DNA of 25,201 bases from Maritimibacter sp. (GTDB lineage: Bacteria > Pseudomonadota > Alphaproteobacteria > Rhodobacterales > Rhodobacteraceae). Where the stretch lies: the NCBI GenBank assembly GCA_020441225.1, contig JAGRMP010000316.1:1-25201 (forward strand). The letters are read 5' to 3'. Position 1 is the first letter of the stretch. Each line of letters starts with the position of its first letter. Shown piece by piece: positions 475-24,567 of the stretch. The notes under the pieces were generated by a model that saw only the letters and a list, made by a program, of their open reading frames with translations, made no database searches and was not told where the DNA came from. The position numbers and the translations under genes are program-made.

Positions 475-3400
475 GTGAGAACCTCGTTTTTCAGCCGTCC
501 CATCGTTTCCCTGGTCAGCGTCGTCATGCTTGTTGTGAGCCTGTCGGCGGGACGTGCCGATGAAGAGGTCGGCCTTGCAGGGCTTGTCGATGCAGCGACG
601 GCCGCACGGAAAGCGGGTGACCTTGATCGCGCGCGGGACCTTTTTTCAACCGCCCTGGACGCCCTTCGTGGCCTGCCGGGGCAGCAGAAAAACATCGCCT
701 TCCTCGAGAACCAGCGCGCCGCCGTCGAGCTGGAGGACGGCAAGGCGGCAGCGGCGCAAGAGGGGTTCGCGCGCGCTGTCGAGCTGGAGCCCGATGCGGC
801 ACGGGCGGCGCAATATGCGGCAAACCTCGGCAATGCCGCGTTGGAGGCCGGCGATGCAGCGGCAGCCGGCGCGGCCTTCGATCGGGCGCGCAGGGCGGCA
901 GATCCCGCGGTTTCGGCGCGGGGCCTCGAAGGGCTCGGACGCATTGCGCTGCGCGCCGGTCTCGGTGTCACCGCGGCCGAATGGTTTGCCGAAGCCTATG
1001 CGCGCAACCCGGATGCCGCCGCCGCGAAGCGCGCGGACATCGCCCAACGCGCGGTGCAGGGTTATCTCGCGGCGCGGCGCCCGGACCAGGCGCGCGAATG
1101 GCTGGAACGCGCCGCGGCCGACCGCGAGGCGGCAGGCGGGGACCGGGATTACGGCTACGACGGCCTTGTCGCGCGTGTCGATATCCTGTCCGGGAAACAT
1201 GCTGCGGCGCGGCAGCTGCTGGAGGAGCTGATCGAGGCCGGCCGCACGGGCGCCGCGTCGCGCGCTGTGCTGGCCTCGGCACTTTACAATCTGGCCGAGC
1301 TCGACTTTCGCCACGGCCGCTACAGTGAAGCGGACGAAACCACGCTCGAAGCGCAGCTGCTGTTTGCCGAAGTGCATGGGGCGGCGCATCCGGTGGTCGG
1401 GCAGGCGATCCACCGAAGGGCTCTGGTGTTTCAGGAACTGGGCGATCTTGAGCGCAGCGGGCAACTCTACGACGAGGCGCTCGCGCTGTTCGCCGAGACC
1501 CTTGACGCGGGCCATCCTTTCATACTCTCGACCCTCATAGAACGCTCGCAGCTCATGGCGGCCGAGGGGGCGCCGGAGACGGCGGCCGACGAGATGGCGG
1601 CGCTGTTGCAGAACCCGTTCTTCGAGACCGACGACGGGGCCTATGCGGGCTTTCTCGCGAATGCCGCCCTGGGCCTGGCGCGCAAGGCGGCGGGCGCGCG
1701 CGGAGGTGCGATCGAAGCGCTGGAAGCGGCGGTGGCGAAACGGACGGAGCTGACGATCTCGCCCGTCGATCTCCTGCCGAGCCTGCTCGCGCTTGCCGAA
1801 CTGCGCGCCGAGGCCGGCGAAACCGTTGTGGCACGCGCGCTGGCCCGGGAAGCGGCCGAGATCATGGACGGTCTGGGGATCGCTTCGATCGCGCTGCGCG
1901 GCGAAGCGGACCGCCTGCTCGCGGAACTCGACTGGGCGGCGGGTGCGCAGGCGGCGGCCCTGCGCCGGGGCGCGGAGATGATGGATCGGATCGGGGCGCG
2001 GATCGCCGAATTGTCGTTGCGCCCGACGATCTCGGCCGATTTCGCACCGGTCCAGATCCGGGGGCAGGTAGGGATGCATCTCGACCACCTGCTCGCTGCG
2101 GGCGGAGACCGCAATGGATCGGCGATCTTCGAGGCGATGCAGCTTCTGCATATGCACGAGACCACCAAGGCGACGAGCGGCTACCTGGCCCGGCTGATCG
2201 AGGAGGACAGTGCCCTGGGTCGGCTGCTGGTCCGGCGCAAGGCGGTGACCGACGGTTTGCGCGCGCTCGAAGATGTTGTTGGAGCCGAGGGGGCAAACGT
2301 GGCCGGTTACGCCGCGCTGACGTCCGAGCTTGCGCGGCTCGACCGGGAGCTCAGTGCGGAACACCCGCAGAAGCTGTTCGAATTGCAGGCCGGTGTGGTG
2401 CCTCTCGAGACGGTGCAGGCAGCGCTGGCCCCGGGCGAGGCGATGTGGCTGCACACGGCTTTCGCGGAACGCAGCGTGATCGCCTGGGTCACACGCGACA
2501 CGCTGCAACTGTCGGCGCTCCCCGTCGGGATCGCGGCGTTGAAGGAAAAGGTCGATCGACTGCGCTATGCGCTTGACGCCGATCGGGGTGGGGGACGGAC
2601 ATATCCCGTCGATCTCGCGGCTGAGCTCTTTCGCGATCTGTTCGGGCCGGTATCGGCGCGGATATCGCAGGTGCGGCGGATCGTGGTGATCCCCGACGGG
2701 CCGGCGCAGGAACTGCCGCTCGCCCCCCTGGTGATGGCATCGGACGGGGCAGGGACGCGCTACCTTGGCCTCGAGAAAGCCATCCTGCGCACGCCCTCTG
2801 TGCACACCTGGCGGCTCCTCGGTCAGACGCCGACCGCCGGCCGTGGCCGCGGCTTCGTCGGTTTTGCCGACCCGGATCTGGGCGCCGGTCCGACGGACGA
2901 GACCACGCGGTCCGTCAGCCTCATCGACAGGCTCTCGGGGCTCGCCCGTCCCGACGCGGTGCGCCGTTTGTTCGGGCCCCTTCATGAGACAAGGGGAGAG
3001 CTCGAAACCCTGTCCGGGCAGTTTGCGCCGGATCGGACACGGCTGTTCTTCGCGGACCTGGCGACCGAGACCACCGTGAAAGCGACCGATTTCGCCGATG
3101 CCGAGGCCGTCGTCTTCGCGACCCATGCGATTGTCGCGGGGGATTTCGACGCGCTGTCGGAACCTGCGCTCATCCTGACCCCTCCTCAGGACGCCTCGCG
3201 CCGGGACGACGGGCTGTTGACCGCTTCTGAAATTGCGTCTCTCGACATTCCCGCCGAGCTGGTGATCCTCTCGGCATGCGACACGGCGGCACCGTCGGGG
3301 CGCAGCGGGGCGGCCGGGCTTTCGGGCCTCGCCAGCGGTTTTTTCCGCGCCGGGGCACGGCGTCTGCTGGTGAGCCAATGGACGATCGCCTCGGAGCCGA

Positions 3401-3567
3401 CGGTCCTGTTGACGACGGGATTTTTCGATCATCTGAACGAGGATCCCGCTCGCGACGCGCCGGAAGCATTGCGGCAGGCGATGCGTCGCCTCCAGGATAT
3501 TCCAGGCAAATCCTACTATGCGCATCCGACCTTCTGGGCGCCGTTTGTGGTCGTCGGTGTGCCCTGA
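475..3567 (+). CDS. Exported TPR-CHAT domain protein (caspase-like)
   Basis: This encodes 1030 residues. I chose the GTG at 475 because an AGAAAAGG-type ribosome binding site precedes it and it starts directly at a signal peptide: a charged start, then a hydrophobic run of about 20 residues ending near SAGRADEE. Residues of about 35-650 are Ala/Leu/Glu-rich helical repeats of TPR type. The C-terminal 300 or so residues match the CHAT domain: a VVIPDGPAQELPLAPL strand-turn, a FATHA motif (His884) and an LSACDTA motif (Cys935), followed by GLASGFFRAGARRLLVSQW. His and Cys form the caspase-like catalytic dyad and both are present, so peptidase activity is plausible. Export to the periplasm is inferred from the signal peptide. 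It precedes the Slam-like and FecR-domain genes on the same strand, which suggests it works on or with those envelope proteins. The substrate is unknown. Confidence 0.9.
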   Translation: MRTSFFSRPIVSLVSVVMLVVSLSAGRADEEVGLAGLVDAATAARKAGDLDRARDLFSTALDALRGLPGQQKNIAFLENQRAAVELEDGKAAAAQEGFARAVELEPDAARAAQYAANLGNAALEAGDAAAAGAAFDRARRAADPAVSARGLEGLGRIALRAGLGVTAAEWFAEAYARNPDAAAAKRADIAQRAVQGYLAARRPDQAREWLERAAADREAAGGDRDYGYDGLVARVDILSGKHAAARQLLEELIEAGRTGAASRAVLASALYNLAELDFRHGRYSEADETTLEAQLLFAEVHGAAHPVVGQAIHRRALVFQELGDLERSGQLYDEALALFAETLDAGHPFILSTLIERSQLMAAEGAPETAADEMAALLQNPFFETDDGAYAGFLANAALGLARKAAGARGGAIEALEAAVAKRTELTISPVDLLPSLLALAELRAEAGETVVARALAREAAEIMDGLGIASIALRGEADRLLAELDWAAGAQAAALRRGAEMMDRIGARIAELSLRPTISADFAPVQIRGQVGMHLDHLLAAGGDRNGSAIFEAMQLLHMHETTKATSGYLARLIEEDSALGRLLVRRKAVTDGLRALEDVVGAEGANVAGYAALTSELARLDRELSAEHPQKLFELQAGVVPLETVQAALAPGEAMWLHTAFAERSVIAWVTRDTLQLSALPVGIAALKEKVDRLRYALDADRGGGRTYPVDLAAELFRDLFGPVSARISQVRRIVVIPDGPAQELPLAPLVMASDGAGTRYLGLEKAILRTPSVHTWRLLGQTPTAGRGRGFVGFADPDLGAGPTDETTRSVSLIDRLSGLARPDAVRRLFGPLHETRGELETLSGQFAPDRTRLFFADLATETTVKATDFADAEAVVFATHAIVAGDFDALSEPALILTPPQDASRRDDGLLTASEIASLDIPAELVILSACDTAAPSGRSGAAGLSGLASGFFRAGARRLLVSQWTIASEPTVLLTTGFFDHLNEDPARDAPEALRQAMRRLQDIPGKSYYAHPTFWAPFVVVGVP

Positions 3568-3627
3568 TGCCCACATATTCCCGTTGAAGAGCCCCGATTG
3601 CCCGCAAAATTGTGTCCAAGACTTGCC

Positions 3628-3651
3628 CAATGCGTTCCTGAGGGCGCATTG
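3628..3651 (+). other. Hairpin in the CHAT/Slam-like gap
   Basis: CAATGCG (3628-3634) and CGCATTG (3645-3651) form a perfect 7-bp stem with a 10-base loop, followed by GTTTCGG-like sequence rather than a T-run. It lies 61 bases after the CHAT stop codon and 108 bases before the next start. It may be a weak terminator or a processing or attenuation hairpin. If it terminates, the downstream pair needs its own promoter in 3652-3759, where I see no convincing one. Confidence 0.3.
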
Positions 3652-3759
3652 TTTCGGAATTAGAATAAACGGTTTTCATTGGTTGCGCTCCAAAACGAGC
3701 GAAAGGGCGATCTGAAATTTTCGCGGATCTGGATTGGACGGTATTTCGAGGTCAAGATT

Positions 3760-5079
3760 ATGCATGAAGGTATTTCCAGGATTGCGGCCGCGGCGGCGTT
3801 CGCAATCGTGCTGGCCTCGGCAGGCGAAGCACAGACTGCCGGCACCGGCGCTTTGAACCTCGCGGTGGACAGGGTGCGGGCCAATCCGGCCAATCCGGAG
3901 GCCTCGTTCCAGCTTGCGGCCGTTGCGATCAACCAGGGCAATGTCCCGACCGCGATCTCGGCGCTCGAACGGGTGCTCATGGTCAATCCACAGCTCGACA
4001 ACATCCGCCTTGAGCTCGGCCTGCTCTACCTCAGGTCGGGCTCGACCGACCTGGCCGAAAGCTACATTGCACAGGCGATGACCGCGTCCGACATTCCCGA
4101 CGAGGTTCGCGCGCGTGGTGCGGCGTTGCTGGCGGAAGCGCAGGGATCGAAAGAGCGCACGCGTGTCAGCGTGACGACCCGGGCGGGGTTCCGGTTCGAC
4201 AGCAACGCGACCTCGGCGCCGGCGGCGGGGGTCTTCGATACCCCCTTTGGCGTCGTCGAGCTCGAGGCAGAGGACGCCGGGGCATCGGATTTTTCTGCCA
4301 GCTTCGGCGCCACGGCGCGTGTCACCCATGATCTGGGTTTCCAGGCGGGTCACCTCCTGGTGTTCGAGGCCGGCTATTCCGGCCAGAGGTTCAACGCGCA
4401 GGCCCAGCTCAACCTCGACCGCGTCGATCTGTCCGTCGGTCCGACCCTGATGTTGGGCCGTGCGCTCGACCGCCCGGCGGAGCTTTCGATCCGCGCATTC
4501 GGCGGCTACCAGCTGCGGGCGGGCGAGGCTTATCTCGGCGAATACGGTCTGCGCGGGGCGCTCGCGGTGGCGGCGACACCCGAGACCCAGGTGAGCCTCG
4601 GCGCCGGGCTCGCCTACCAGGATTATCTCGACACCACGGACCTTACCGACAACGACCGCAAGGACGGGCTCTACGCCAACGGCACTTTGGGCGTGCAGTA
4701 CCGGTTCGACGACAGCACGATGTTCCGTGGCGATCTGATGGTCGCACGAAAGGAGGCGCGGGAGGATCTGGAGGCGTTTACCTTGATGCGTGCGGGCGTC
4801 GGCGTGGTCCGGGCGCTGCCTCAGATGGGCGGGGTCGAGCCGATTTTGTCGCTCGATGCCGCGGTGGAAAGCCGGAGCTACGATGGCACCGCGCTGGTGG
4901 CGACCACGGTCCTCGATCGCGAGGACCTGGCCTATGAATTCGGCCTTGGGCTGGAGATCCCGCTCAAATCCGGCCCCGCGGTGCTCGGACAATTTTCCTA
5001 TCGCACCAACGATTCCAACGACGACCTCAACGATTACGACAACATCGGCCTGCAGATCGGGATCGCCCACAGATTCTGA
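3760..5079 (+). CDS. TPR plus outer-membrane beta-barrel protein, Slam-like
   Basis: This encodes 439 residues. The ATG at 3760 follows GAGG by eight bases and opens a signal peptide that ends near GEAQTA. The frame extends upstream, but that part has no signal sequence. Residues of about 28-125 are TPR-like helices (FQLAAVAINQGNVPTAISAL, then LRLELGLLYLRSG-type segments). After a short linker, the rest is alternating amphipathic strands rich in Gly, Tyr and Asp turns, beginning with GFRFDSNATSAP and ending in a terminal Phe, as expected of an outer-membrane barrel. TPR followed by barrel is the layout of the surface lipoprotein assembly modifier (Slam, DUF560) family, and the GxxxDSN start is typical. 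It ends 33 bases before the FecR/barrel gene, a likely client. The family call is by layout and motif, so another porin-like family is possible. Confidence 0.72.
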   Translation: MHEGISRIAAAAAFAIVLASAGEAQTAGTGALNLAVDRVRANPANPEASFQLAAVAINQGNVPTAISALERVLMVNPQLDNIRLELGLLYLRSGSTDLAESYIAQAMTASDIPDEVRARGAALLAEAQGSKERTRVSVTTRAGFRFDSNATSAPAAGVFDTPFGVVELEAEDAGASDFSASFGATARVTHDLGFQAGHLLVFEAGYSGQRFNAQAQLNLDRVDLSVGPTLMLGRALDRPAELSIRAFGGYQLRAGEAYLGEYGLRGALAVAATPETQVSLGAGLAYQDYLDTTDLTDNDRKDGLYANGTLGVQYRFDDSTMFRGDLMVARKEAREDLEAFTLMRAGVGVVRALPQMGGVEPILSLDAAVESRSYDGTALVATTVLDREDLAYEFGLGLEIPLKSGPAVLGQFSYRTNDSNDDLNDYDNIGLQIGIAHRF

Positions 5080-5112
5080 TCCGCCTGGACCGATGGTCAC
5101 AGGAGATTGAAA

Positions 5113-8100
5113 ATGATGCAGAGCGTTTTGAAAAGGCATCTCCTCACCACTGCGCTTGCCGGATTGCTGGCGGCCCCGATGCCGGCCCTGTCCGAGAATG
5201 CGCTCCGGCAGGTCAACTTCGGAACCGGGGCCGCCACGGTCGCGGCAAAGACCGGCGAAGTGGTCGAGATATTGCTCGCCGACGGCACGTCGGTGGTGCT
5301 CGCGCCGGGGAGCGAGGTCCATGTCTCGAGCGACGGGGCGCAGGTGGACATCCTCCTGACCGGGGGACTGATGCGGGTCTCGGGTGGGGCGGGGGCCGGT
5401 GACGGTATCCGGATCCAGACCCCCCAGGGCACGGCGCGGCTCAGGGCCGGCGTGGCCGTGGTGGCGGCCGAGAACGGCGCCACCCGGGCGCATCTCATCG
5501 CCGGCGAGGAGATCGTGCTGCGCTGCGGCAAGCGCAACCGGACGCTCTACCGCCCCGGCTTCCAGTCGGTCTGCAAGGGCACGGGCCCCTCGGTACCGCG
5601 CAAGATGACGGCCGCCGATCTGGCGGCCGACATCGCCCGGCTGTCCGCGGTGCTGAAACAGGGGGCGTCGGGTGGCGGTGGCGGGACGGGCGGCGGCACG
5701 GCCGGGGTTGGCGGCGCGGCACCGGGAGGCGGCATCCGGCAGGCCGGAGTCGGGGATGGCTCCGGCGAGGATCTCGCGGCCCCGGTGACCTCGAACGAGG
5801 ACTCGCCGGATGTCGAACCACCCTTCGGCACCATCGACCTCGCGGGGGTTTTCGGGATCGAGGAGGTTGAGGCGGGGGAAAAGTTCGGAGAGACATCAAC
5901 CACAATCGTCGATGGGCGGAACGCCGGACCGGCACAGGAGCTCCATTATCCGCCCGGTTCGATTGCTCAGGACCTAGTGCCAGAACCTTTCCGTTTCTTT
6001 GGACCAACCACCAACAGAGTCGGCTTCCCAGTTGACTTCGCACTCTCTGGCGAGGGGATGGCGGAACATGGTGCATTGAACGAGGATGGCGGTGGGCTCT
6101 CCTTCTTCGTCGACACCGCCGGCGAAGAGTTCGGCGTCAAGCTCGCGGACATTCGGGAATATGGTGATCCCCAGGCACTTTTTCATTTGGACGCTTCCAG
6201 CCAAGTGCAAGGGGTGATTTCCGCAGACACCTTCTTTTTACGCGATTCCAACCTCCCGTTCGCAAGGGGAGACAGCACATTTGGACCATTTGAGTACGAG
6301 ATGAGGGGGTCCATTTTTCGGCCTGCCGCCCCAGGAGATTTACGGAACTACGACGCAAGTGACATCCAGAATGTTTTTTTGGCTTCCGATCTCGTCTTCG
6401 CGGCTGTCTTTGACGATTTGGACAATCTGGAGGGTTTTGAAATCGAATCGGGTACTCCAGTTGGTCTAGGCTCGGACCTCTCTTTCTACGGAGTGCCCGG
6501 AATAGGTGCGACCATGGATGGGCTCGCTTTTGGCGAGCTCAATGGGGTTGGGTCGGATGGAGTCCGTCGCGAGTTGGACAACTTCTTTTTTGCTCGTATC
6601 GATGGTGCTCCGACCTTTCAGATGGTGAACCCGGGTCAAGATCCCCGGATCGACGCGGATGTGATGCGAGAAGCCGTGGCCTTTTACGTCGCTGAGAAGT
6701 TTCCTGAGGCCACGGCCGCGAAGCTGGATTCCGGAGACACTTTTGCATCTGGCCTCATCCTCGACGCCCCCACCGGCCAGAGCGTGACCTTTGCGGCTGG
6801 CGACCTCGACGGGTTGGCGGACGATAACGCGCCCGGGCGGAACCTCGACCGATCCATCGACCGGTATTCGCTCTCGGCTGGTCTGCCGTCCGGTGCGCTC
6901 GACGACGACGGCAATCCGACCGATCTGTTCAACCCTGCCAACGCCGACCGGCTCACGGCCGTGACCGACCTTGACACCGGGATGCGGGGGTTCCTCCGGG
7001 GCGAAAGCTGGACCGATCTCGACGGCCGCGGCGACGGCCGCGGGCCGTTGCGGACCCGCGAGCTGACCGACAGCGGCCTGATCGTGGTCAACCCGGACGG
7101 CGATCCGGTCGCCGACGATCTGACATCGAAGATGCTGCATGCCGATTTCGGGATCGCGGATGTGCGCGGGCGACAGGTGTCGACGATCTCCGCCACCGTC
7201 GGCGAGATCGAATTCCGGCTGCAACATGACCTGTATCAGGATCCGAGCGAGGACCCCGCGATGGGCGACGCGCTCGCGACCGCGCAGACGATCGGCACCG
7301 CGCGCGGGTTCTACCCGGACGAGGACGGCACGGGCTTCGACTTCGGCGCCTCGACGCTGTTCACCTCGGAGTTTCGCAGCACCGCCGCGGGCGGGGGCAA
7401 TCCGTTGGTCGATGCCGATGACGACGGGACCCCCGATGTCGGGCGGCTCGGCTTCATGGTGTTCGAGAACGCGGGCACGGTTTTCGACGATGTCGCCCCC
7501 GACCCGAAGCCCCTGAAGGGCGGTCTGGAGCAGCCGATGGGCGGGGGTGAGGACACCGAGTTCGCCCTGCTCCGTCTCGGGATCGCGGCCGAAGTCACCG
7601 CATCCCCGGCCAGGCTTACCCCGTTCACCGGGCGCGACATCGGTTTCGCCGCCGGGATCATGGAAGTGGAGGGCAAAGGTACCGTCCTGCTCGCGCCTGT
7701 TGGGCTCGGCGGCGACGCCTTTTTCGACTTCGCGGCGCGCGGCAAGGACGATACGGCCTTCGGCGCCGAGCTTGTTTTCGACGGCCAACGGATCGCTTTC
7801 GGCGGGGCGGATAACCCGAGCGCCTTTGCCAGCCATTCGGAATTCGGCGCCGTCGCCACGGCCGACGACGGGACCAACATGGCGATGATCTCGGGGGAAC
7901 TGATCAAACCGGCGTTCGGCACTGCCGACGCGCCCGCAGCCTCCGACAAGATCCGTCCGATCAAAGGTGGCTATGAGCATGTGAAATGGGGCTTTTTCTT
8001 CGGCGACATGCCGGAGGTCGCCGGTGTGCGGCGGCACATGCACCTCGGCAGCTTCGCCTCGGGGACGCCAACGCGGAATTTCGACCAGGCGCGTGCCGGC

Positions 8101-8472
8101 AACGTCACCTACCGTGGCCATGTCGTCGGCAACGTCACCCATGGCGGAGAGGTCTATACCGCGACCGGTGAGTTCAAGGACAGGTTCAGCTTTGCGGCGA
8201 ACAGTTGGAGCGGTGCCCCGGTGATTACCAATTTCGATGGCGAGACCTATCGCGGGACCAGTTCGGCGACCCGGAGCGGTGCCTACAGCGGCCTGGCCAC
8301 GTCAACGTCCGGCGGGCTCACGGCGGCGCTCGACGGCCGGTTCGTGGGCGAGCTTGTCCCGGTGTCCGACGGGACCGCGCCGAAGGGGCTGGTCGGATCG
8401 TTCAGCATCAGCGGCGCGCGGAATTCAAGCGGCTACCGGGCGCTCGGGACCTTCGGGGCCGAGACCAGGTGA
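5113..8472 (+). CDS. Exported FecR-domain protein with C-terminal TbpB-like barrel
   Basis: This encodes 1119 residues. ATG at 5113 sits seven bases after AGGAG; a TTG two codons earlier is worse placed. The signal peptide (KRHLLTTALAGLLAAPMPAL) has no lipobox Cys, so it is not an obvious lipoprotein. Residues of about 35-160 form a FecR domain (LADGTSVVLAPGSEV, then LLTGGLMRVSGG and IRIQTPQGTARLRAG) with two Cys. A Gly-rich linker follows (about 185-215), then a long Asp/Gly-rich middle part. From about residue 950 (GGYEHVKWGFFF) to the end, short Gly-punctuated strands such as YRGHVVGNV and GLVGSFSISGARNS resemble the TbpB-type eight-strand barrel of surface-exposed proteins. It probably forms a pair with the preceding Slam-like gene. 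No FecI-type sigma factor is adjacent, so a FecR signalling role is unlikely. Bases 5870-6770 differ in composition from the rest. Confidence 0.8.
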   Translation: MMQSVLKRHLLTTALAGLLAAPMPALSENALRQVNFGTGAATVAAKTGEVVEILLADGTSVVLAPGSEVHVSSDGAQVDILLTGGLMRVSGGAGAGDGIRIQTPQGTARLRAGVAVVAAENGATRAHLIAGEEIVLRCGKRNRTLYRPGFQSVCKGTGPSVPRKMTAADLAADIARLSAVLKQGASGGGGGTGGGTAGVGGAAPGGGIRQAGVGDGSGEDLAAPVTSNEDSPDVEPPFGTIDLAGVFGIEEVEAGEKFGETSTTIVDGRNAGPAQELHYPPGSIAQDLVPEPFRFFGPTTNRVGFPVDFALSGEGMAEHGALNEDGGGLSFFVDTAGEEFGVKLADIREYGDPQALFHLDASSQVQGVISADTFFLRDSNLPFARGDSTFGPFEYEMRGSIFRPAAPGDLRNYDASDIQNVFLASDLVFAAVFDDLDNLEGFEIESGTPVGLGSDLSFYGVPGIGATMDGLAFGELNGVGSDGVRRELDNFFFARIDGAPTFQMVNPGQDPRIDADVMREAVAFYVAEKFPEATAAKLDSGDTFASGLILDAPTGQSVTFAAGDLDGLADDNAPGRNLDRSIDRYSLSAGLPSGALDDDGNPTDLFNPANADRLTAVTDLDTGMRGFLRGESWTDLDGRGDGRGPLRTRELTDSGLIVVNPDGDPVADDLTSKMLHADFGIADVRGRQVSTISATVGEIEFRLQHDLYQDPSEDPAMGDALATAQTIGTARGFYPDEDGTGFDFGASTLFTSEFRSTAAGGGNPLVDADDDGTPDVGRLGFMVFENAGTVFDDVAPDPKPLKGGLEQPMGGGEDTEFALLRLGIAAEVTASPARLTPFTGRDIGFAAGIMEVEGKGTVLLAPVGLGGDAFFDFAARGKDDTAFGAELVFDGQRIAFGGADNPSAFASHSEFGAVATADDGTNMAMISGELIKPAFGTADAPAASDKIRPIKGGYEHVKWGFFFGDMPEVAGVRRHMHLGSFASGTPTRNFDQARAGNVTYRGHVVGNVTHGGEVYTATGEFKDRFSFAANSWSGAPVITNFDGETYRGTSSATRSGAYSGLATSTSGGLTAALDGRFVGELVPVSDGTAPKGLVGSFSISGARNSSGYRALGTFGAETR
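5870..6770 (+). other. Lower-GC mosaic block inside the FecR/barrel gene
   Basis: Codon use changes abruptly around base 5870 (residue about 253) and returns around 6770 (residue about 553) without breaking the frame. By direct count, bases 6181-6240 have 28 G+C of 60, against 49 of 60 at 7021-7080. The block uses A/T-ending codons freely, including TTT, TTG and CCA, while its flanks almost never do. It encodes the first half of the middle, presumably surface-exposed, part of the protein. Boundaries are by eye and uncertain by some tens of bases. Confidence 0.7.
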
Positions 8473-8562
8473 CGCTGTTTCCGGCGGCCGCGAGCAAGGC
8501 GCGGCAGCCGCTGGACACCGCGCTTGACCCTGTGCCCGAGGTTGTGGCGGCGCCTGCGCGCG

Positions 8563-9057
8563 TCAGTTCAGAGTGGTGATTTCCACCCGCCGGTTGCGAC
8601 CGTCTTCCGGGGCATCCGGGAACAGGAGACGGGTCTCGCCGAAGCCGAGAATGTCCAGCCTGTCCGGGGCGATCCCCTGTGTCGATGTGAGATAGGTTTT
8701 GACCGATTGGGCCCGGGCCTGCGAAAGGGCGAGATTGTCGTCGGCGCGCCCGACCGCGTCGGTGTGGCCGGCGACGGAAAACCGGTAGCCGGCGAGCGCG
8801 TCCGAGCCGAGGGCTTCGGCGACGGTGGCAAGCAGGCCTTTTGCCTCTTCGCTCAGTTCGGCACTGCCGAGGGCGAAGGTGACCGCAAGGTCGATGCTCG
8901 GACGCGCCATCGCCGTGACCTCGGCCCCGCGCAATTTCAGCGGCGGGGTGAGGGCATCGACCAGCCCCTCCTTGGTCGTCTGCGCGAGGGGCGCATCCTG
9001 CGCAATCGCCATCGCGGGAAGGGTGAACGCGACGAGAAAAAGCTGTGTCATCCGCAT
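8563..9057 (-). CDS. OmpA-family peptidoglycan-binding protein
   Basis: This encodes 164 residues, which is a small periplasmic or outer-membrane-associated form. The start has AAGGAG seven bases upstream, and the signal peptide MRMTQLFLVAFTLPAMAIAQ is clean. There is no lipobox. Residues of about 53-160 are an OmpA C-terminal domain: FALGSAELSEEA, then VAGHTDAVGRADDNLALSQARA with the usual Asp and Arg for binding diaminopimelate, then GFGETRLLFPDAPEDGRNRRVE. It follows the DUF4384 gene by 65 bases on the same strand, so the two are probably cotranscribed. It faces the CHAT/Slam-like/FecR genes across a 90-base gap. A role anchoring the locus's envelope complex to the cell wall is an inference from context. 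Confidence 0.88.
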   Translation of the reverse strand: MRMTQLFLVAFTLPAMAIAQDAPLAQTTKEGLVDALTPPLKLRGAEVTAMARPSIDLAVTFALGSAELSEEAKGLLATVAEALGSDALAGYRFSVAGHTDAVGRADDNLALSQARAQSVKTYLTSTQGIAPDRLDILGFGETRLLFPDAPEDGRNRRVEITTLN

Positions 9058-9122
9058 GCAATATCTCCTTTCAAATCTGTGTCACCGGACGGGATCGAGC
9101 CATGGCCGTCTCGCGGCGCGTC

Positions 9123-10721
9123 TTACTCGACCACCGTCACCGTGAGGGTCGCGGCCGCGACGTCGGTCGCGCCGAGCGACTGGAAGACCTCCCCGAGCCG
9201 TGTGGCGTAGTGGGGCGGGACCGGCTCGAAAGACGTGCCGCGCATCGCCTCGGGCAGATCGGCGCGCACGTCGCGCGAAGTGGCGAAGCAGCGCAGGGCT
9301 TCGATCCCGTAGGTTTCGCCGGTGATGGTGATCTCGAAATCCGTCGGTTTCGCCGGCGCGTGGCGCGGGGGAAACTCGTGCAACCGGCCGCCTTCGTAGA
9401 AATTCGCGTCGCGACCGTCGCCCTGGATCGGGTTCGGCAGGAACTGGACGGTCTCGCCGTCCGAGGCGACATAGAAACAATAGACCCAGCTGTCCTGCGC
9501 GAGGCGAAACATGGCGCGGAGTTTCTCTCCGACGCGATAACTCGGGCTCGCTCCGCGAGGTCCGGTCATCTTGAAATCTTCCCCTCCGACGTCCCAGCCG
9601 GGCGCTTCCACCGGCTGCGCCGGCGCCAGACCCATCCCGGGCGGCAAGGCGCCGGGGCGGACGTTGCCGGACCAGCCGTGCGGAACCCCGTCGGGGTCGC
9701 GGAGCGTGACCGAAAGAAGGATCGCGGTGTCGCAGGGCCAGTAGCGGAAACTCAGCCGGTAGGCGGAGGTCCCGGCGCCGGACGCGCCTGCATCGGTGTC
9801 GGTGAAGGCGTCTTCGATCTGGCGCGCGGACACTTCGGCGCCGCGCAATTGCAGGAGGGCTGCGGAATCGGTCCTGTGCATGTTGCGGATCGTGAGCCGC
9901 GCGGCGCCGGCGAGCGCGCCGTGCGCGGCGGCCAGCCGTTGGACGAGTTCCGTCTCCAGGTGCCGACCGAAACCCGTGCGGGCGGTCGTGTCCTGGAAAT
10001 ACCCGCCTTCGACGACGAGATGCTGCATGTCGGGGGCCTGTCCGGCGAGGTCTTTGGCGATTTCATCCAGGGCGCGGTCGAGCGCCTGGGCGGGGTCGTT
10101 GCAGCCGCCGCCGGCAAGCGTTTCCGGGATCGCAATCGGGCCGACGCTGGCGACGGCCACGCTGGTCTGCCGCAACATCGCCCGGAAGGTCGCCTGTGGC
10201 ACGCCGCCCTGCTCCTCGATCCTGCCGGCGACGATGAAATCGACCGCACCGAGATTGGCTTCGAGCTCGTCGAGGGTCTGCGCACCCTTGTCCCAGTCGG
10301 CGCCCGTGGACTGCAACAGCCGCAGGGTGACGCCGATCCCGCGGACATCGGTGGTCTTGAAACACGCGGGCGCGGCCGCGAGGTAGCCGGCAAGGAAGCG
10401 GTCGTAGATCCGGTTGGCGAGCGCCGGCGCGATCGGGATCTCGCGCGCGTCATAGGGCCAGATGCCGACATGGGTTGGGCGATGGATGCTGCAGGGCCCG
10501 GCCTCGGCCAGTTGCCTTGCGATTTGTGCCCCCGCGCGTTCCATCGCCTGTTCGTCGGTCTGGGCCATTGTCGCGCCCGCCGCGGTGCACAGGGCGACCG
10601 CAAGGACCCACGCGAAAAACCGCCTCAACGGTCGAAACCCGCGGGCACGCGCACCCGCCCTCCGGTCGTCCCTGCGCATGCTCGGTTTCCGCTGTGTCGT
10701 GTCGGCAATGTGTCCAACCAT
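9123..10721 (-). CDS. Exported DUF4384-domain protein
   Basis: This encodes 532 residues from the ATG at 10721, which has AGGA seven bases upstream. An ATG at 10679 is an alternative but lacks a good ribosome binding site. An Arg-rich start leads into a hydrophobic segment (residues about 35-54, FFAWVLAVALCTAAGATMAQ), a signal peptide or anchor. Residues of about 60-330 form an alpha/beta region that I do not recognise, containing FIVAGRIEEQGG. Residues of about 392-480 match DUF4384: YRVGEKLRAMFRLAQDSW, YCFYVASDGETVQFLPN and a later TGETYGIEALRCFA. DUF4384 proteins commonly occur with OmpA and caspase-like genes, which fits this locus. It is probably transcribed with the downstream OmpA gene. 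Direct repeats just upstream may control it. Confidence 0.8.
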   Translation of the reverse strand: MVGHIADTTQRKPSMRRDDRRAGARARGFRPLRRFFAWVLAVALCTAAGATMAQTDEQAMERAGAQIARQLAEAGPCSIHRPTHVGIWPYDAREIPIAPALANRIYDRFLAGYLAAAPACFKTTDVRGIGVTLRLLQSTGADWDKGAQTLDELEANLGAVDFIVAGRIEEQGGVPQATFRAMLRQTSVAVASVGPIAIPETLAGGGCNDPAQALDRALDEIAKDLAGQAPDMQHLVVEGGYFQDTTARTGFGRHLETELVQRLAAAHGALAGAARLTIRNMHRTDSAALLQLRGAEVSARQIEDAFTDTDAGASGAGTSAYRLSFRYWPCDTAILLSVTLRDPDGVPHGWSGNVRPGALPPGMGLAPAQPVEAPGWDVGGEDFKMTGPRGASPSYRVGEKLRAMFRLAQDSWVYCFYVASDGETVQFLPNPIQGDGRDANFYEGGRLHEFPPRHAPAKPTDFEITITGETYGIEALRCFATSRDVRADLPEAMRGTSFEPVPPHYATRLGEVFQSLGATDVAAATLTVTVVE

Positions 10722-11199: not shown

Positions 11200-12210
11200 T
11201 TGACATTTCACGGGCGGGGAGCCATACGGACATGTGGTCCCCGACATCGCTGCCGCCGTGCTGCCGTCCGCGATACGACCGCACGCCTTCACGTCCAGTG
11301 GCATGTCCCCCGCGCTTTTTGCAAGCGCGGCAATGGAGGGTGCGGGATCAACCATCATATCACTCGGAAGACCGGTCGGGCCTGTCCGGCAGCGCGGCAG
11401 CTGCAGAGCCGCCGCTCAGGGAGGCGGGCCGCCCTTGCGCGCTGCGTCCGGTCCCTCGCGGTTCTTGTCGCGGTCGCGGTCGGTGCCGTGGTTGTCGCAG
11501 CCGCGCCGGTCCGGGCCCAGGCGACGGCGGCGGATGTGCCGCCGAATGCCGAGGCGCGCAGCTACGGGACCGGCTGGGATTGCGACCTCGGCTACCTGGA
11601 GGACCGGGACGTCTGCGTGGAAATCCAGCTTCCCGACAACGCCTATCCGACCGGGCGCTCCTACGACGAAGGCTGGGCCTGCACCTACGGCTATCACCGC
11701 CGGTCCGGCGGCTGCGATGAAGTCCTCGTGCCGGAGAACGCCTATCTGAACGCGAAAGGCGATGGCTGGCAATGTGACCGCTTGTACCGGCGTGTCGGGG
11801 CCGGCTGCGAAGCGATTGCGGTGCCCGAACACGGCTATCTCATCGACCGGTATTCCGACGTCACCATTGGATGCGACTGGGGCTATCGGCTCTACCGGGG
11901 CGATTGCGTCGCCATCGAGCTGCCGGAGAACGCCCATCTGACCGACCGGTATTCCGACAGCGGCTGGGTCTGCAATCGAGGGTTCCGCGCAACGTCCGAC
12001 CAATGCGTGCCGGTGGAGGTCCCTCAAAACGCATACCTGTCGGGCGACGGCACGTCCACGTCATGGAAATGCGAGCGCGGGTACCGCGCCGTGCGGGATG
12101 GCTGTGCAAAGATCGAGCTGCCCGCGAATGCCCATGTGAACCGGGCCGGCAACGGCTGGGAGTGCAACCGCCCTTACACCCGGAGCCGGGACGACTGCAC
12201 GCTTGAGTAA
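11200..12210 (+). CDS. Secreted cysteine-rich seven-repeat protein, start unclear
   Basis: From base 11524 the frame encodes seven imperfect repeats of about 31-33 residues, each with a VP/LPxNAxL strand, a GWxCxxGY segment and a second Cys before an acidic V/I (for example ELPENAHLTDRYSDSGWVC). That gives 14 Cys in pairs, which suggests one disulphide per repeat outside the cytoplasm. Before them is a signal-like stretch, RSLAVLVAVAVGAVVVAAAP, ending PVRAQ. No ATG lies in this frame: the only standard starts are TTG at 11200, far upstream with no clear binding site, and GTG at 11488, which would leave almost no signal sequence. CTG at 11401 would fit the signal peptide best. A missed frameshift or a rare start is possible. 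I do not recognise a named family. TAA at 12208 ends the last repeat, so the C-terminus looks intact. Confidence 0.7.
   Translation: MTFHGRGAIRTCGPRHRCRRAAVRDTTARLHVQWHVPRAFCKRGNGGCGINHHITRKTGRACPAARQLQSRRSGRRAALARCVRSLAVLVAVAVGAVVVAAAPVRAQATAADVPPNAEARSYGTGWDCDLGYLEDRDVCVEIQLPDNAYPTGRSYDEGWACTYGYHRRSGGCDEVLVPENAYLNAKGDGWQCDRLYRRVGAGCEAIAVPEHGYLIDRYSDVTIGCDWGYRLYRGDCVAIELPENAHLTDRYSDSGWVCNRGFRATSDQCVPVEVPQNAYLSGDGTSTSWKCERGYRAVRDGCAKIELPANAHVNRAGNGWECNRPYTRSRDDCTLE
11310..11330. repeat. Perfect 8-bp inverted repeat before the repeat-protein gene
   Basis: CCGCGCTT (11310-11317) and AAGCGCGG (11323-11330) pair perfectly around a five-base loop. It lies upstream of the signal-peptide coding part and no T-run follows. 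If translation begins at the CTG at 11401, this hairpin would be in the leader. If it begins at 11200, it would be inside the gene. Confidence 0.4.
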
Positions 12211-17065: not shown

Positions 17066-17995
17066 ATGGTGAAGCTGGTTCTCTTGCACAAGACAGACTC
17101 GATCTACGACGACGAGCCCGACCGCGTCTACGACTTCCCGGGAAGATACCTAACGGCGGTGCGTGAGGGCGTCGGCGATTGGATCGTCTACTATGAGCCG
17201 GGCAGGGACGGGAGACGCGCATACTTCGCCGTTGCCAAGATATCGAAGGTCATCGAGAAGCCGGGTGCGCCAGGGCGGTTCCTCGCCCTGATCGCGCCCG
17301 GGAGCTTCCTGCCTTTCGACCGCGATGTGTCGCGACTGATCGACGGACATCCCCTCGAACAAGCCCTGGCCAATCCCGACGGAACGCTTCGGACAGGCGG
17401 CATCGTCCAAAGCGCGGTCCGTTACCTTCCCGAGGACGACTTCGCGCGGATCGTCAATTTGGGGCTGCCACAGGATCTCGAGCGGCAAGAAGAGACCAGA
17501 TATGACACCCATGCCAACAACGAGATGGACGATCGGGCCCAGGCGCCGTTCGAACGCCCGGTGCTCGAGCGGCTCACCCGTCGGCCATATCGGGACGTGG
17601 CGTTCCGGCGGAAGGTGCGGGAGGCCTACGACTACCGCTGTGCCATGTCCGGGCCGCGCCTGCGCAACGGGGGAGGGCGGCCGGAGGTGCAGGCGGCACA
17701 CATCCGGCCCGTCGAGCAGCAGGGCAGCGACTCCGTCCGGAACGGCCTCGCCCTGTCGGGCACGCTCCACTGGATGTTCGACCGCGGCCTGATCTCGGTC
17801 GCGCACGATTGCGAGACCATCCTCGTCTCGCGGAACAAGGTCCCGGGCGACGTCGTCGACCGCCTTCTGCGACCGGGCGGCAAGCTCCTCCGGCCGGAAG
17901 ACCCGCGCAACGCGCCGCACCCCGGGAACCTCCAATGGCACCGTGAGAACGTCTTTGGCCAGGTGTCGGCCGACGGGCCGGCGCCGTGGGAGTGA
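17066..17995 (+). CDS. HNH endonuclease of restriction type
   Basis: This encodes 309 residues from ATG at 17066; no strong ribosome binding site is visible. The N-terminal half (residues 1-130, with DFPGRYLTAVREGVGDWIVY and KISKVIEKPGAPGRFLALI) looks like a small beta-rich recognition domain of the PUA/EVE sort; that resemblance is my inference. Residues of about 185-260 are an HNH_2-type nuclease: YDYRCAMSG, AAHIRPVEQQG (His212), RNGLALSG (Asn226) and LHWMFDRGLI (His235), so the catalytic His-Asn-His set is complete. Related proteins are annotated as restriction-like HNH nucleases, possibly acting on modified or foreign DNA. It has no methyltransferase partner, which would fit a modification-dependent enzyme. 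Its neighbours are mobile and defence-like genes. Confidence 0.82.
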   Translation: MVKLVLLHKTDSIYDDEPDRVYDFPGRYLTAVREGVGDWIVYYEPGRDGRRAYFAVAKISKVIEKPGAPGRFLALIAPGSFLPFDRDVSRLIDGHPLEQALANPDGTLRTGGIVQSAVRYLPEDDFARIVNLGLPQDLERQEETRYDTHANNEMDDRAQAPFERPVLERLTRRPYRDVAFRRKVREAYDYRCAMSGPRLRNGGGRPEVQAAHIRPVEQQGSDSVRNGLALSGTLHWMFDRGLISVAHDCETILVSRNKVPGDVVDRLLRPGGKLLRPEDPRNAPHPGNLQWHRENVFGQVSADGPAPWE

Positions 17996-18610: not shown

Positions 18611-19882
18611 TCACTCCCTGGGTTCGTCAGGGTTCGGTCGACCCAGCCATTCCCGCGACTTCCGCGTGAGCCCGACGATCGACCTGGTCAGGCCCTTGCG
18701 AGCCTTCACAACCCTGTCGCGCAGTCCGTCCGGCAGCGTCCGGGCAATTTCGACGATCGCGTCGTCCGCCGCCCGGATCTGATCGAACGCATCGGAGAGT
18801 TCTTCCCGGGCCTCCGTCCGGGCAGACGTCCGCAGACGGTCGATGGCCTTCCCGAAGACCGCCCGCGCCTTGCCGACCAACCCGGTTCCGGGCGCGTCAA
18901 CGCCCGTCAGAACATCGACACGGCCCTCGGCCACGCCCTCGGCGATGCCCAGGACCGTCACGGCCTCGGCGTGTTTCTTGTCCGCGTCCGCTTCCCGTCC
19001 GGAGAGGGTGTTCTCGCGCTCATGGAGATCCTTCTCCTTGGCCGCCTGCGCGATGTCACGCTCCGCCAGGTTGATCTCCTGCTGCTCGCGCCATTTCCGC
19101 GGGCTGACGTGCGCGCGATACTCCGGAAGATCGACAAGGTCGTCCTTGGTGGCCGTCCCGTCTTTCATCGCCGCCCGGACCATGCGGTTGTGCTCGAGAG
19201 CGTCGCGAAGCGCCTGTTTCCGTCGGACGCCGCGTGTCAGGTCAATGCCGGCGTCACCGAAGAACTTGCCGACGCTATCCTGAGCCTTCTCGTAGTTCTT
19301 GATCAGCTTCCGCGCCGAGGGCTGCAGCATGTGCCGCCCGTCCGGCGTGACCTTGCTTGCAGCTATGACGGCGTGGATGTGATAAGCTTTCTCATCGACA
19401 TCCGCGCTGGCGTGCCGGCAATCTTCGCCGAAGTTTTCGACCAGCCACTGTTTCGAAAGATGCTCAAAGACATCTTCCCGGGACATCCCCATGCTGGCCC
19501 AGAACCCGTCCAGGTTGCGCTCGAACCAATCGGCATTGACGGTCAGGATCACTTCCCGCAGCGGCCCGTGCCGCGTCGCACGCCAGGGATCATTGGGCCC
19601 CTCCGCCAGACGCCGTTCCAGGTCCTTTTTGCGCCGCCGTTTCTTCAGGCTCGCAAGCTCTTTCACGTAGTTCCCAAGGCGCATGTCCTCGATGTCGTTC
19701 CAAAGCGTTTGTGCCCAGTCGGCCTGCCCCAGGAGGCGACGGTTCGCGGGGGTGAGCACAGGGTCGATGTGACCAAGGTCACCACCCTCGCGCTTCCTAT
19801 GCTTCTCGAAGCCGGAGAGGTTCTCGGGCCACAGCCCCTGGAACCGGAGGACAACGGGGGAAGCTTGTTCGGACGTGCACAT
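18611..19882 (-). CDS. MobV/Pre-type plasmid mobilisation relaxase
   Basis: This encodes 423 residues. ATG at 19882 has GAGG eight bases upstream. The N-terminal 220 residues fit the Mob_Pre family: an N-terminal RxxGLxPxNLxxFEKHRKRE-like segment, HIDPVLTPANRRLLG (38-52), REVILTVNADWF (109-120) and the metal-binding HASADVDEKAYHIH (157-170, with Asp163, Glu164, His168, His170). The rest is a long charged coiled-coil (about 235-320) and a basic tail, typical of this family. It nicks DNA at oriT to start transfer, using helper conjugation machinery supplied elsewhere. Base composition is high GC (43 of 60 at 18841-18900), like the host, and unlike the helicase pair next to it. No other transfer gene is in the window. 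Confidence 0.82.
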   Translation of the reverse strand: MCTSEQASPVVLRFQGLWPENLSGFEKHRKREGGDLGHIDPVLTPANRRLLGQADWAQTLWNDIEDMRLGNYVKELASLKKRRRKKDLERRLAEGPNDPWRATRHGPLREVILTVNADWFERNLDGFWASMGMSREDVFEHLSKQWLVENFGEDCRHASADVDEKAYHIHAVIAASKVTPDGRHMLQPSARKLIKNYEKAQDSVGKFFGDAGIDLTRGVRRKQALRDALEHNRMVRAAMKDGTATKDDLVDLPEYRAHVSPRKWREQQEINLAERDIAQAAKEKDLHERENTLSGREADADKKHAEAVTVLGIAEGVAEGRVDVLTGVDAPGTGLVGKARAVFGKAIDRLRTSARTEAREELSDAFDQIRAADDAIVEIARTLPDGLRDRVVKARKGLTRSIVGLTRKSREWLGRPNPDEPRE

Positions 19883-20191: not shown

Positions 20192-21028
20192 ATGATAAGA
20201 AAGCCGGTTCTCGGGGAAATCACGCAAGGTACGTTGTTTAATTGCGCTGTTGCAGATAGATACCAAAGCAAACGGGTTCATGGCCTAGCCATTACGGCAA
20301 GATGCGACATTGCAAATGACAAATTCCCAGTCTTGAACTACCTTCCAGTAGTGACGCTTTATGACTGGATGCATTGCGACGGGTTCGAGATTCTATATGC
20401 GAATGCGCTACGGTCATCGAGTGGAAGTTTCGAAGCCGTTCTCAAACAGGCAGGAGTCGCCGTGAGCGTATTAGCCGCTAATCCAAGGCAGGAAGTGGTG
20501 TCGAGTTTCTTCGATGAGGATGAAGCTACCAAGGCGCAAAAAAAACTCGCCACCAAAGCTCACGAACTGGCGGATCGTCTTGACCGGCTTGAAGCAGTAG
20601 AGATGGACGATTCAAGTGACCGGAAATGGTTCCTTGATGCCTACAAAAACGAGGCTTCTGACCTTGTCAGGAATCTTATACACAACAAAGTATCCAGTTT
20701 TTACTTTCTCCCCAGCGTTACCGAATCGAATGAGGGCGACGGGTATGTCATACTCCTAAGAGAGAGTGCATTTCTCCCTCGACAAGTGGCCAAGGAAGTT
20801 GCGAACGGGGTGGAGCGACCGTCAAGTATTGGCGCTGAGCTTGATAAGCACCTTTCGTTTGAGTTCGATGACTTTGCTATGCCGGTTGGGCAGCTACAGT
20901 CTCCGAATATAGAACATGTTTTGCAAACATTCTCATACATGTTCGGGAGGATTGGTTTGGAGGATTATAACGTGAGCTTTGTAGAGGGCGTTTGCCGACG
21001 TGACTTCGCGACTGAAGGGGTGGGTTGA
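20192..21028 (+). CDS. Unrecognised protein paired with the SF1 helicase
   Basis: This encodes 278 residues from ATG at 20192; GGATGGG upstream is a weak binding site. I cannot assign a family. The N-terminal part (EITQGTLFNCAVADRYQS, then HGLAITARCDIANDKF and YLPVVTLYDW) has a beta-rich feel and a striking ITARCDI motif that is probably conserved. The middle (about 105-140) is a charged helix or coiled coil (EATKAQKKLATKAHELADR). The C-terminal 120 residues contain SSFYFLPSV and GYVILLRESAFLP strands. No signal peptide or membrane segment is present. Codon use is AT-richer than the flanks. Its stop is one base before the helicase start, so the two proteins are made together and very likely act together, perhaps as a sensor or specificity partner. 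Confidence 0.75.
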   Translation: MIRKPVLGEITQGTLFNCAVADRYQSKRVHGLAITARCDIANDKFPVLNYLPVVTLYDWMHCDGFEILYANALRSSSGSFEAVLKQAGVAVSVLAANPRQEVVSSFFDEDEATKAQKKLATKAHELADRLDRLEAVEMDDSSDRKWFLDAYKNEASDLVRNLIHNKVSSFYFLPSVTESNEGDGYVILLRESAFLPRQVAKEVANGVERPSSIGAELDKHLSFEFDDFAMPVGQLQSPNIEHVLQTFSYMFGRIGLEDYNVSFVEGVCRRDFATEGVG

Positions 21029-21029
21029 A

Positions 21030-24009: not shown

Positions 24010-24567
24010 ATGTTCGATCAGACCGAAGACGAAACCGGCCACTGGGCCGATGAAATCCAGCGCGGCAATGTCGTGCTGTTCCGTTTCCCGATCCGGCGTG
24101 CGGGCGAGGGCGAAGGCCCGAAGGTCCGGCCGTGCCTCGTGCTCGAAGTCGAAGAGTTGTCCGGCGGGAAGCGTCTGACGCTGGCCTACGGGACAAGCGC
24201 GCCTACCGCGGCGAACCGCGGCTACGAGATCCCGGTGACCCACGTTGAGGACATTCGCGCCGCCGGATTGAAACGCGCCACGCGATTCATCGGCGCTCGC
24301 CTCATCTCGGTTGCGCCGGAGAACGCTGGGTTCGACGTCGGCGGCCCGATCTCCTCGCCGGTCATCGGTCGGCTCTCGCCGAACCGGATGGAGCGGCTGG
24401 ACTGGGTGAGGGCGCGCCTCCACGCAGAGCACGACATCGCCACGGAACGCCGCAGACGGCGTTTTGGCCGAGGTCCAACGGTGGAACGGCGACGCCGCAA
24501 GATCCTCGTCCATTCCCCGAGTTCGGCGGCCCGACGAGCCCGCTGCGCGACCGGCCCCTCGATGTGA
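24010..24567 (+). CDS. PemK/MazF-like protein with basic tail
   Basis: This encodes 185 residues. ATG at 24010 is preceded by AAAGGAGAGATCG, a strong binding site. Residues of about 15-125 resemble the PemK/MazF small-barrel fold: RGNVVLFRFPI, KVRPCLVLEVEEL, LTLAYGTSAPT and RFIGARLISVAPENAGFD. In PemK/MazF toxins the RPxLVL strand is characteristic and the proteins cut RNA. MazF toxins are about 110 residues; the extra C-terminal 50 residues here are very Arg-rich (TERRRRRFGRGPTVERRRRK). No antitoxin gene is adjacent, so toxin function is uncertain, and it may instead be a regulator or nucleic-acid binder built on the same fold. Its stop codon lies inside a strong hairpin. Confidence 0.6.
   Translation: MFDQTEDETGHWADEIQRGNVVLFRFPIRRAGEGEGPKVRPCLVLEVEELSGGKRLTLAYGTSAPTAANRGYEIPVTHVEDIRAAGLKRATRFIGARLISVAPENAGFDVGGPISSPVIGRLSPNRMERLDWVRARLHAEHDIATERRRRRFGRGPTVERRRRKILVHSPSSAARRARCATGPSM

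Follow-up and report, generated by a model that had tools for sequence, protein, structure and literature searches.

We analysed a window of 25,201 nucleotides from Maritimibacter sp. (contig JAGRMP010000316.1 of assembly GCA_020441225.1), the whole stretch being meant by this term, in which positions 475 to 10,721 encode five exported-looking proteins. The core of this locus, a tetratricopeptide repeat (TPR) outer membrane barrel protein followed by a FecR-domain protein, is read here as a surface-display and sensing module made of an exporter and its cargo and joined to an exported CHAT protein; we give this reading about an even chance. Three envelope sets, namely the barrel-FecR pair, the CHAT protein and a DUF4384-OmpA pair, stand together in the window, and elsewhere each is found singly near CHASE2 cyclases, membrane-bound sensors with a predicted cyclic AMP output. 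On the best reading of the whole locus, envelope modules of the kind that accompanies CHASE2 cyclases are here combined with an exported CHAT protein; a cyclase was not found on the contig. What the sequences show directly is the order of the genes, their family kinship, the domain of cargo type and, in relatives, recurrence and linkage to cyclases.

Layout of the locus

The features are as follows.
475..3567, + strand: exported TPR-CHAT protein, 1030 aa (Pfam CHAT, E = 6e-48)
3760..5079, + strand: Slam-like outer membrane protein (signal peptide, TPR helices, 14-strand barrel ending in F)
5113..8472, + strand: FecR-domain protein of ~1120 aa, probable cargo (FecR, 7e-9; AGGAG at 5101)
7885..8469, + strand: C-terminal cargo-type beta-barrel domain of the FecR protein (family profile)
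8563..9057, - strand: small exported OmpA-domain protein (OmpA, 5.6e-20)
9123..~10721, - strand: exported DUF4384 protein (DUF4384, 3e-13)

The five gene calls were backed by open frames and codon-position GC, and a signal-peptide-like N-terminus was judged by eye to be present in 5/5 core proteins. The CHAT, barrel and FecR genes form one run on the + strand, with gaps of 192 bases (CHAT-barrel) and 33 bases (barrel-FecR), and the ATG of both the FecR and the OmpA genes is preceded by AGGAG 7 bases upstream. The DUF4384 and OmpA genes, in this order, are a same-strand pair convergent with the run. A first-pass annotation of the DNA had grouped five exported-looking genes in this way, which the frames, GC and Pfam matches bear out; its gene details needed correction at the FecR start, placed here at ATG 5113, and in the arrangement of OmpA and DUF4384, which converge on the run together as a pair. 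Scans of the window for tRNA genes and for Rfam families at the gathering threshold gave nothing.

A Slam-like barrel and its FecR neighbour

Slam proteins consist of an N-terminal TPR part and a C-terminal 14-strand barrel. The AlphaFold2 model of the window barrel protein likewise shows an N-terminal TPR part and 14 strands (pLDDT 82), and Pfam detected TPR together with weak SlipAM and outer membrane barrel matches. Within the barrel family, TPR_Slam was matched by 25/58 members and SlipAM by 17/58 (E ≤ 0.01; best SlipAM 7.9e-14). The TPR-barrel protein is probably a divergent exporter of the Slam/type 11 type, and the next gene would supply its substrate. No Slam structure was among the PDB fold matches listed for the model, from which no conclusion was drawn.

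The FecR domain of the neighbouring protein lies at the N-terminus, after the signal peptide, and the C-terminus carries the cargo-type domain. A profile of this domain built without the window and without L004, a locus described below, scored the window domain at E = 1.5e-27, and reversed sequences gave no reported match. The domain family matched chains of NHBA (5e-8), TbpB (6e-6), LbpB (5e-5) and factor H binding protein (fHbp; 2e-4). These are cargo barrels of Slam/type 11 systems, which lends sequence support to reading the two genes as exporter and cargo, and the earlier suggestion of a Slam-like exporter beside a surface-type protein stands. A single-sequence search with the window FecR protein found nothing at E ≤ 0.001 among 7987 candidates scored, itself included, and none in plasmids; FecR relatives were reached via the neighbouring barrel gene. 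When the two ends of the next gene were read by eye in 11 chosen loci, no clear candidate emerged for a small cargo encoded separately beside FecR. In L060 and L074 the FecR proteins are ~1620-1630 aa long, with ~630 residues extending past the cargo-type domain.

The principal alternative makes the barrel a receptor or pore in place of an exporter, with the FecR protein as a periplasmic adaptor passing the barrel's signal on to CHASE2 cyclases and with the C-terminal barrel found on some FecR proteins as a ligand-binding or docking domain. We regard this as a serious possibility, at clearly less than an even chance. The closest folds to the barrel model among the PDB matches listed are the CymA and OmpG pores, and a precedent exists in Sinorhizobium meliloti, where the outer membrane barrel protein NsrA is needed for the response of the CHASE2 cyclases CyaK and CyaD1/CyaD2 (PMC7529298, PMC13001267). 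The layout of NsrA differs, its barrel being placed at residues 600-1200, and FecR is absent from both of these texts. The combination of TPR and 14 strands, the TPR_Slam and SlipAM matches in relatives and a cargo-type domain recognised in 22/41 FecR neighbours of barrels suit an exporter better. The other 19/41 FecR neighbours, two of which (L045 and L096) run into the end of a contig, have a barrel partner without a recognised cargo domain; they favour the receptor alternative and count among the points against an exporter with cargo.

Recurrence of the barrel-FecR pair

When genomes were scanned with the barrel family, six loci came back: five in Omnitrophota and one, L004, in the metagenome-assembled genome of an uncultured Erythrobacter. 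In L004 the barrel, FecR and CHAT genes are consecutive on the same strand, in an order differing from that of the window, and identity to the window proteins in aligned parts was 30% (barrel), 27-33% (FecR) and 30% (CHAT). Neither OmpA nor DUF4384 has a recognised relative in this locus.

The barrel profile matched 87/385 sampled alphaproteobacterial genomes (E ≤ 1e-8). The 60 best places after that of L004 itself were taken as barrel loci, lower-ranked places being left out, and a barrel gene was called by a simple gene picker in 59 of them (all except L062). FecR was the next same-strand gene in 41/58 loci having a next gene and lay anywhere on the piece in 43/59. CHASE2 genes were found within three genes of the barrel in 25/59 loci and anywhere on the piece in 26/59. 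In Omnitrophota, FecR followed the barrel in 4/4 loci with a next gene, and CHASE2 lay within three genes in 3/5 and on the piece in 4/5. The CHASE2 profile was built from six barrel-locus neighbours, 6/6 of which were confirmed by Pfam; CHASE2 plus cyclase was found by Pfam in 6/10 neighbours submitted. The same row can be read from existing annotation in Shinella sp. H4-D48 p1 (hypothetical protein, FecR protein, adenylate/guanylate cyclase) and in Paracoccus aminophilus pAMI5 (TPR protein, FecR protein, adenylate/guanylate cyclase).

No FecR gene was present on the piece in 16/59 barrel loci. Ten of these (L040, L041, L046, L047, L049, L055, L063, L064, L065 and L070) belong to one 14-member group of a quick barrel tree.

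The CHAT protein

By its domain (164 bits against a Pfam cut-off of 24) and its intact dyad, the window protein is a CHAT peptidase, from which proteolytic activity would be expected. His884 and Cys935, noted as an intact dyad in the first-pass annotation, were invariant across 6 aligned CHAT sequences, and Cys935 is the sole Cys in the 1030-aa form. The start is uncertain: GTG 475, with AAGG upstream, preserves the whole signal peptide and is preferred over ATG 526. The database copy (P0006) begins 17 codons downstream of GTG 475, with which the signal peptide would be lost.

CHAT relatives were found in 66/385 sampled alphaproteobacterial genomes (E ≤ 1e-30). We studied 40 of the 47 best places after that of L004 itself; six were skipped, mostly close to contig ends, as was G036:C58, already counted as barrel locus L080. 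In a crude export test of the 40 CHAT proteins, 24 appeared Sec-type, 11 lipoprotein-like and 5 neither. With 35/40 passing by signal peptide or lipobox, exported CHAT proteins appear common in alphaproteobacterial loci; the exported CHAT in the same run was described correctly by the annotation and repeats in a second genome, but its export is not the unusual property it had been taken for. A CHASE2-cyclase-like gene lay within three genes of CHAT in 15/40 loci, and uniform placement predicts 0.46/40. The cyclase profile used here was trained on five of the same loci, and Pfam confirmed CHASE2 plus cyclase in 3/3 submitted. The barrel was present in 0/40 CHAT loci and a FecR gene in one (L134), at greater distance.

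The CHAT protein may be a chance neighbour of a barrel-FecR pair that works alone, which we consider improbable. CHAT directly adjoins barrel-FecR in 2 places only, the window and L004 (adjacent in 0/40 CHAT loci and 0/59 barrel loci), and it recurs without the barrel. In the quick barrel tree (68 rows) the window groups with P0036/P0037 and L004 with P0038, and the two are not united; the trees do not show the trio to have been inherited together. Against a chance association, the trio occurs in two distant genomes in differing order, and their CHAT proteins form one clade of three in a 74-row CHAT tree, the window protein joining P0007 (100/97) and then L004 (96/83). In addition, 3/31 other sampled genomes with both (G036, G057 and G374) have CHAT and barrel on the same contig, separated by 5-13 kb; in L080 (G036:C58), the one barrel locus of 59 with a CHAT relative on the piece, the distance is 5 kb. 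Further members of the window CHAT clade were sought in 396 genomes of the order of L004; CHAT was present in 70 at E ≤ 1e-60, none scoring above 357 bits, compared with 1544 for the L004 protein, which was in the query.

A CHAT-type defence or cell-suicide system of the Craspase or gasdermin-like kind is very improbable: the CHAT domain and the weak defence-model matches of the downstream HNH and UvrD genes speak for it, but PADLOC gave 0 matches for CHAT, barrel, FecR and DUF4384 and only ZorB models for OmpA, all five core proteins look exported, and CRISPR and gasdermin families were not found among the window proteins scanned with Pfam.

Two further observations concern the CHAT loci. An unnamed exported-looking protein of ~230 aa occurs near CHAT and the cyclase, within three genes of CHAT, in 12/40 loci, for example at 10658-11350 of L119; its profile was trained on nine CHAT loci, and no Pfam family above cut-off was found in the 7 proteins scanned. 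The ~230-aa gene between CHAT and cyclase had appeared FecR-like by eye, and this was rejected at an HHalign probability of 0.2%. On a Pseudosulfitobacter plasmid (L001, 2029-10275), a caspase, a trypsin-like protease, a TPR protein, an unnamed protein and an exported-looking CHAT protein follow one another.

The OmpA and DUF4384 pair

DUF4384 was found at 44 places in 34/385 genomes, and 20 pieces holding 21 of these 44 places were sampled. An OmpA relative directly adjoined DUF4384 on the same strand in 6/20 pieces (window order in 2, reverse in 4) and lay one gene away in 2 more. A CHASE2 cyclase was present on 5/20 pieces (0.13/20 expected by chance) and CHAT on 1/20; a barrel or FecR gene was found on 0/20. 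With CHASE2 on the pieces and no barrel or FecR, the DUF4384-OmpA pair looks like another, separate CHASE2-cyclase partner rather than a constant component of the CHAT-barrel-FecR run. Among the 59 barrel loci, a window-type OmpA relative was on the piece in 1 and a window-type DUF4384 relative in 0, although the window probe missed the DUF4384 gene in 4/20 of the sampled pieces and may miss distant ones in barrel loci too. The five genes had been put forward as one system, with co-occurrence of at least four of them as its sign; the best case, L004, holds 3/5, and the five-gene system is not upheld.

Beside the DUF4384 gene, at 11200-12210 (+), lies a gene for an exported-looking Cys-rich protein with about seven repeats of two Cys each and a sub-cut-off Pfam match only.

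Display, sensing and proteolysis

In the module favoured here, the TPR-barrel would export the product of the next gene, the FecR protein. The C-terminal cargo-type barrel may serve as its export address, and the N-terminal FecR domain with the long middle part would be the payload, for which we infer surface exposure. As barrel-FecR, CHAT and DUF4384-OmpA are often near CHASE2 cyclases in relatives, the most likely role of these envelope proteins is to gather, on behalf of a CHASE2 receptor in the inner membrane, a signal from the cell surface or the envelope; the link may extend to cAMP. The TPR-CHAT protein would be a periplasmic protease that cuts a module component, its putative substrate, once its TPR part is engaged, and this cleavage may feed a cyclase encoded elsewhere or act in its place. 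The genome of L004 encodes a CHASE2 cyclase away from the locus, so a signal in trans is possible.

A wider version of this idea is rather doubtful: type 11 secretion would be wired into signalling, with Slam-type barrels displaying FecR receptors that report to CHASE2 cyclases, and in a rare lineage an exported, caspase-like CHAT peptidase would replace or supplement the cyclase and give surface-triggered periplasmic proteolysis.

Several observations weigh against the display and sensing module or its cyclase link, in addition to the FecR neighbours without cargo domain, the rarity of CHAT adjacency and the divided barrel tree already given. The window barrel scored 19.4-19.7 bits with SlipAM, under the Pfam cut-off of 22. 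The cargo-type match holds at the level of the family profile, and the window FecR protein alone matches no cargo Pfam model; the AlphaFold2 model of the cargo half (window and L004) reached pLDDT 27 and was not used. Pfam found no CHASE2 adenylate cyclase in the 17 window proteins scanned, the contig giving just 474 bases upstream of CHAT. No CHASE2 gene was found on the L004 piece, and none of the module partners was recognised beside the one clear CHASE2 cyclase of that genome. The chance figures given above take related loci as independent, assume uniform placement and count CHASE2 only at E ≤ 1e-6.

Relation to known systems

Type 11 secretion systems (T11SS) with Slam (DUF560, SlipAM) are alike in having a TPR protein with a 14-strand outer membrane barrel that adjoins a protein with a C-terminal barrel of the TbpB/NHBA/fHbp type. 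They differ from the present loci in that the cargo here opens with a FecR domain, is ~400-1630 aa long and, in the window, has no Cys lipobox, and in that the neighbours here are CHASE2 cyclases or CHAT. The terms FecR, CHAT and caspase are absent from the main text of two T11SS papers (PMC12282271, PMC8406197), and 9/10 T11SS clusters are described there as lacking a characterised member.

The Burkholderia BiofilmReg operon also has an exported FecR protein adjoining a CHASE2 receptor, a kinase; it has features of its own in the LysM on FecR and the histidine kinase output (PMC5192318). The terms beta-barrel, TPR, tetratricopeptide and OmpA are absent from its main text, which describes the ligand of CHASE2 domains as unknown. 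In S. meliloti, a FecR-domain protein is listed among the cAMP/Clr targets (PMC5498481), and CHASE2 and DUF4384 are named in a review as accessory domains of cyanobacterial orthocaspases (PMC7475262).

Fec-type regulation involves an inner membrane FecR protein with a sigma factor and a TonB receptor encoded adjacent to it. The window FecR protein differs: the Pfam scan of 17 window proteins gave neither a sigma factor nor a TonB receptor, and its FecR domain is N-terminal, after a signal peptide. CHAT peptidases such as Craspase and the gasdermin-linked enzymes share the CHAT domain with its His/Cys dyad; the window CHAT differs in looking exported and in adjoining envelope genes. In the open-licence literature, subscription papers being outside this scope, searches on FecR with CHAT or Slam/T11SS, on CHASE2 with CHAT and DUF4384, on CHASE2 cyclases with outer membrane TPR proteins and on exported CHAT proteases gave no title or abstract dealing with a locus of this kind.

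In a recurring barrel-FecR-CHASE2 unit, T11SS would have a receptor as cargo, and the input of a CHASE2 cyclase from the outer membrane would be known. With the CHAT version, a three-gene construct would allow a direct test of a periplasmic role for CHAT proteases.

Other genes in the window

An HNH protein at 17066-17995 (+) resembles phosphorothioate-DNA restriction endonucleases (NCBIfam 1.2e-23; 83.7 bits, under the cut-off of 180). At 24010-24567 (+), a weak PemK/MazF-like match (0.0036, below cut-off) is followed by a small gene. Two overlapping genes at 20192-23324 (+), the second encoding a UvrD-like helicase with weak AbiO/GajB matches, have a third-position GC of 0.50 and 0.57, compared with ~0.8 in most other genes, which suggests recent acquisition. 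A MobV/Mob_Pre-like relaxase is encoded at 18611-19882 (-), so the stretch may belong to a mobilisable element.

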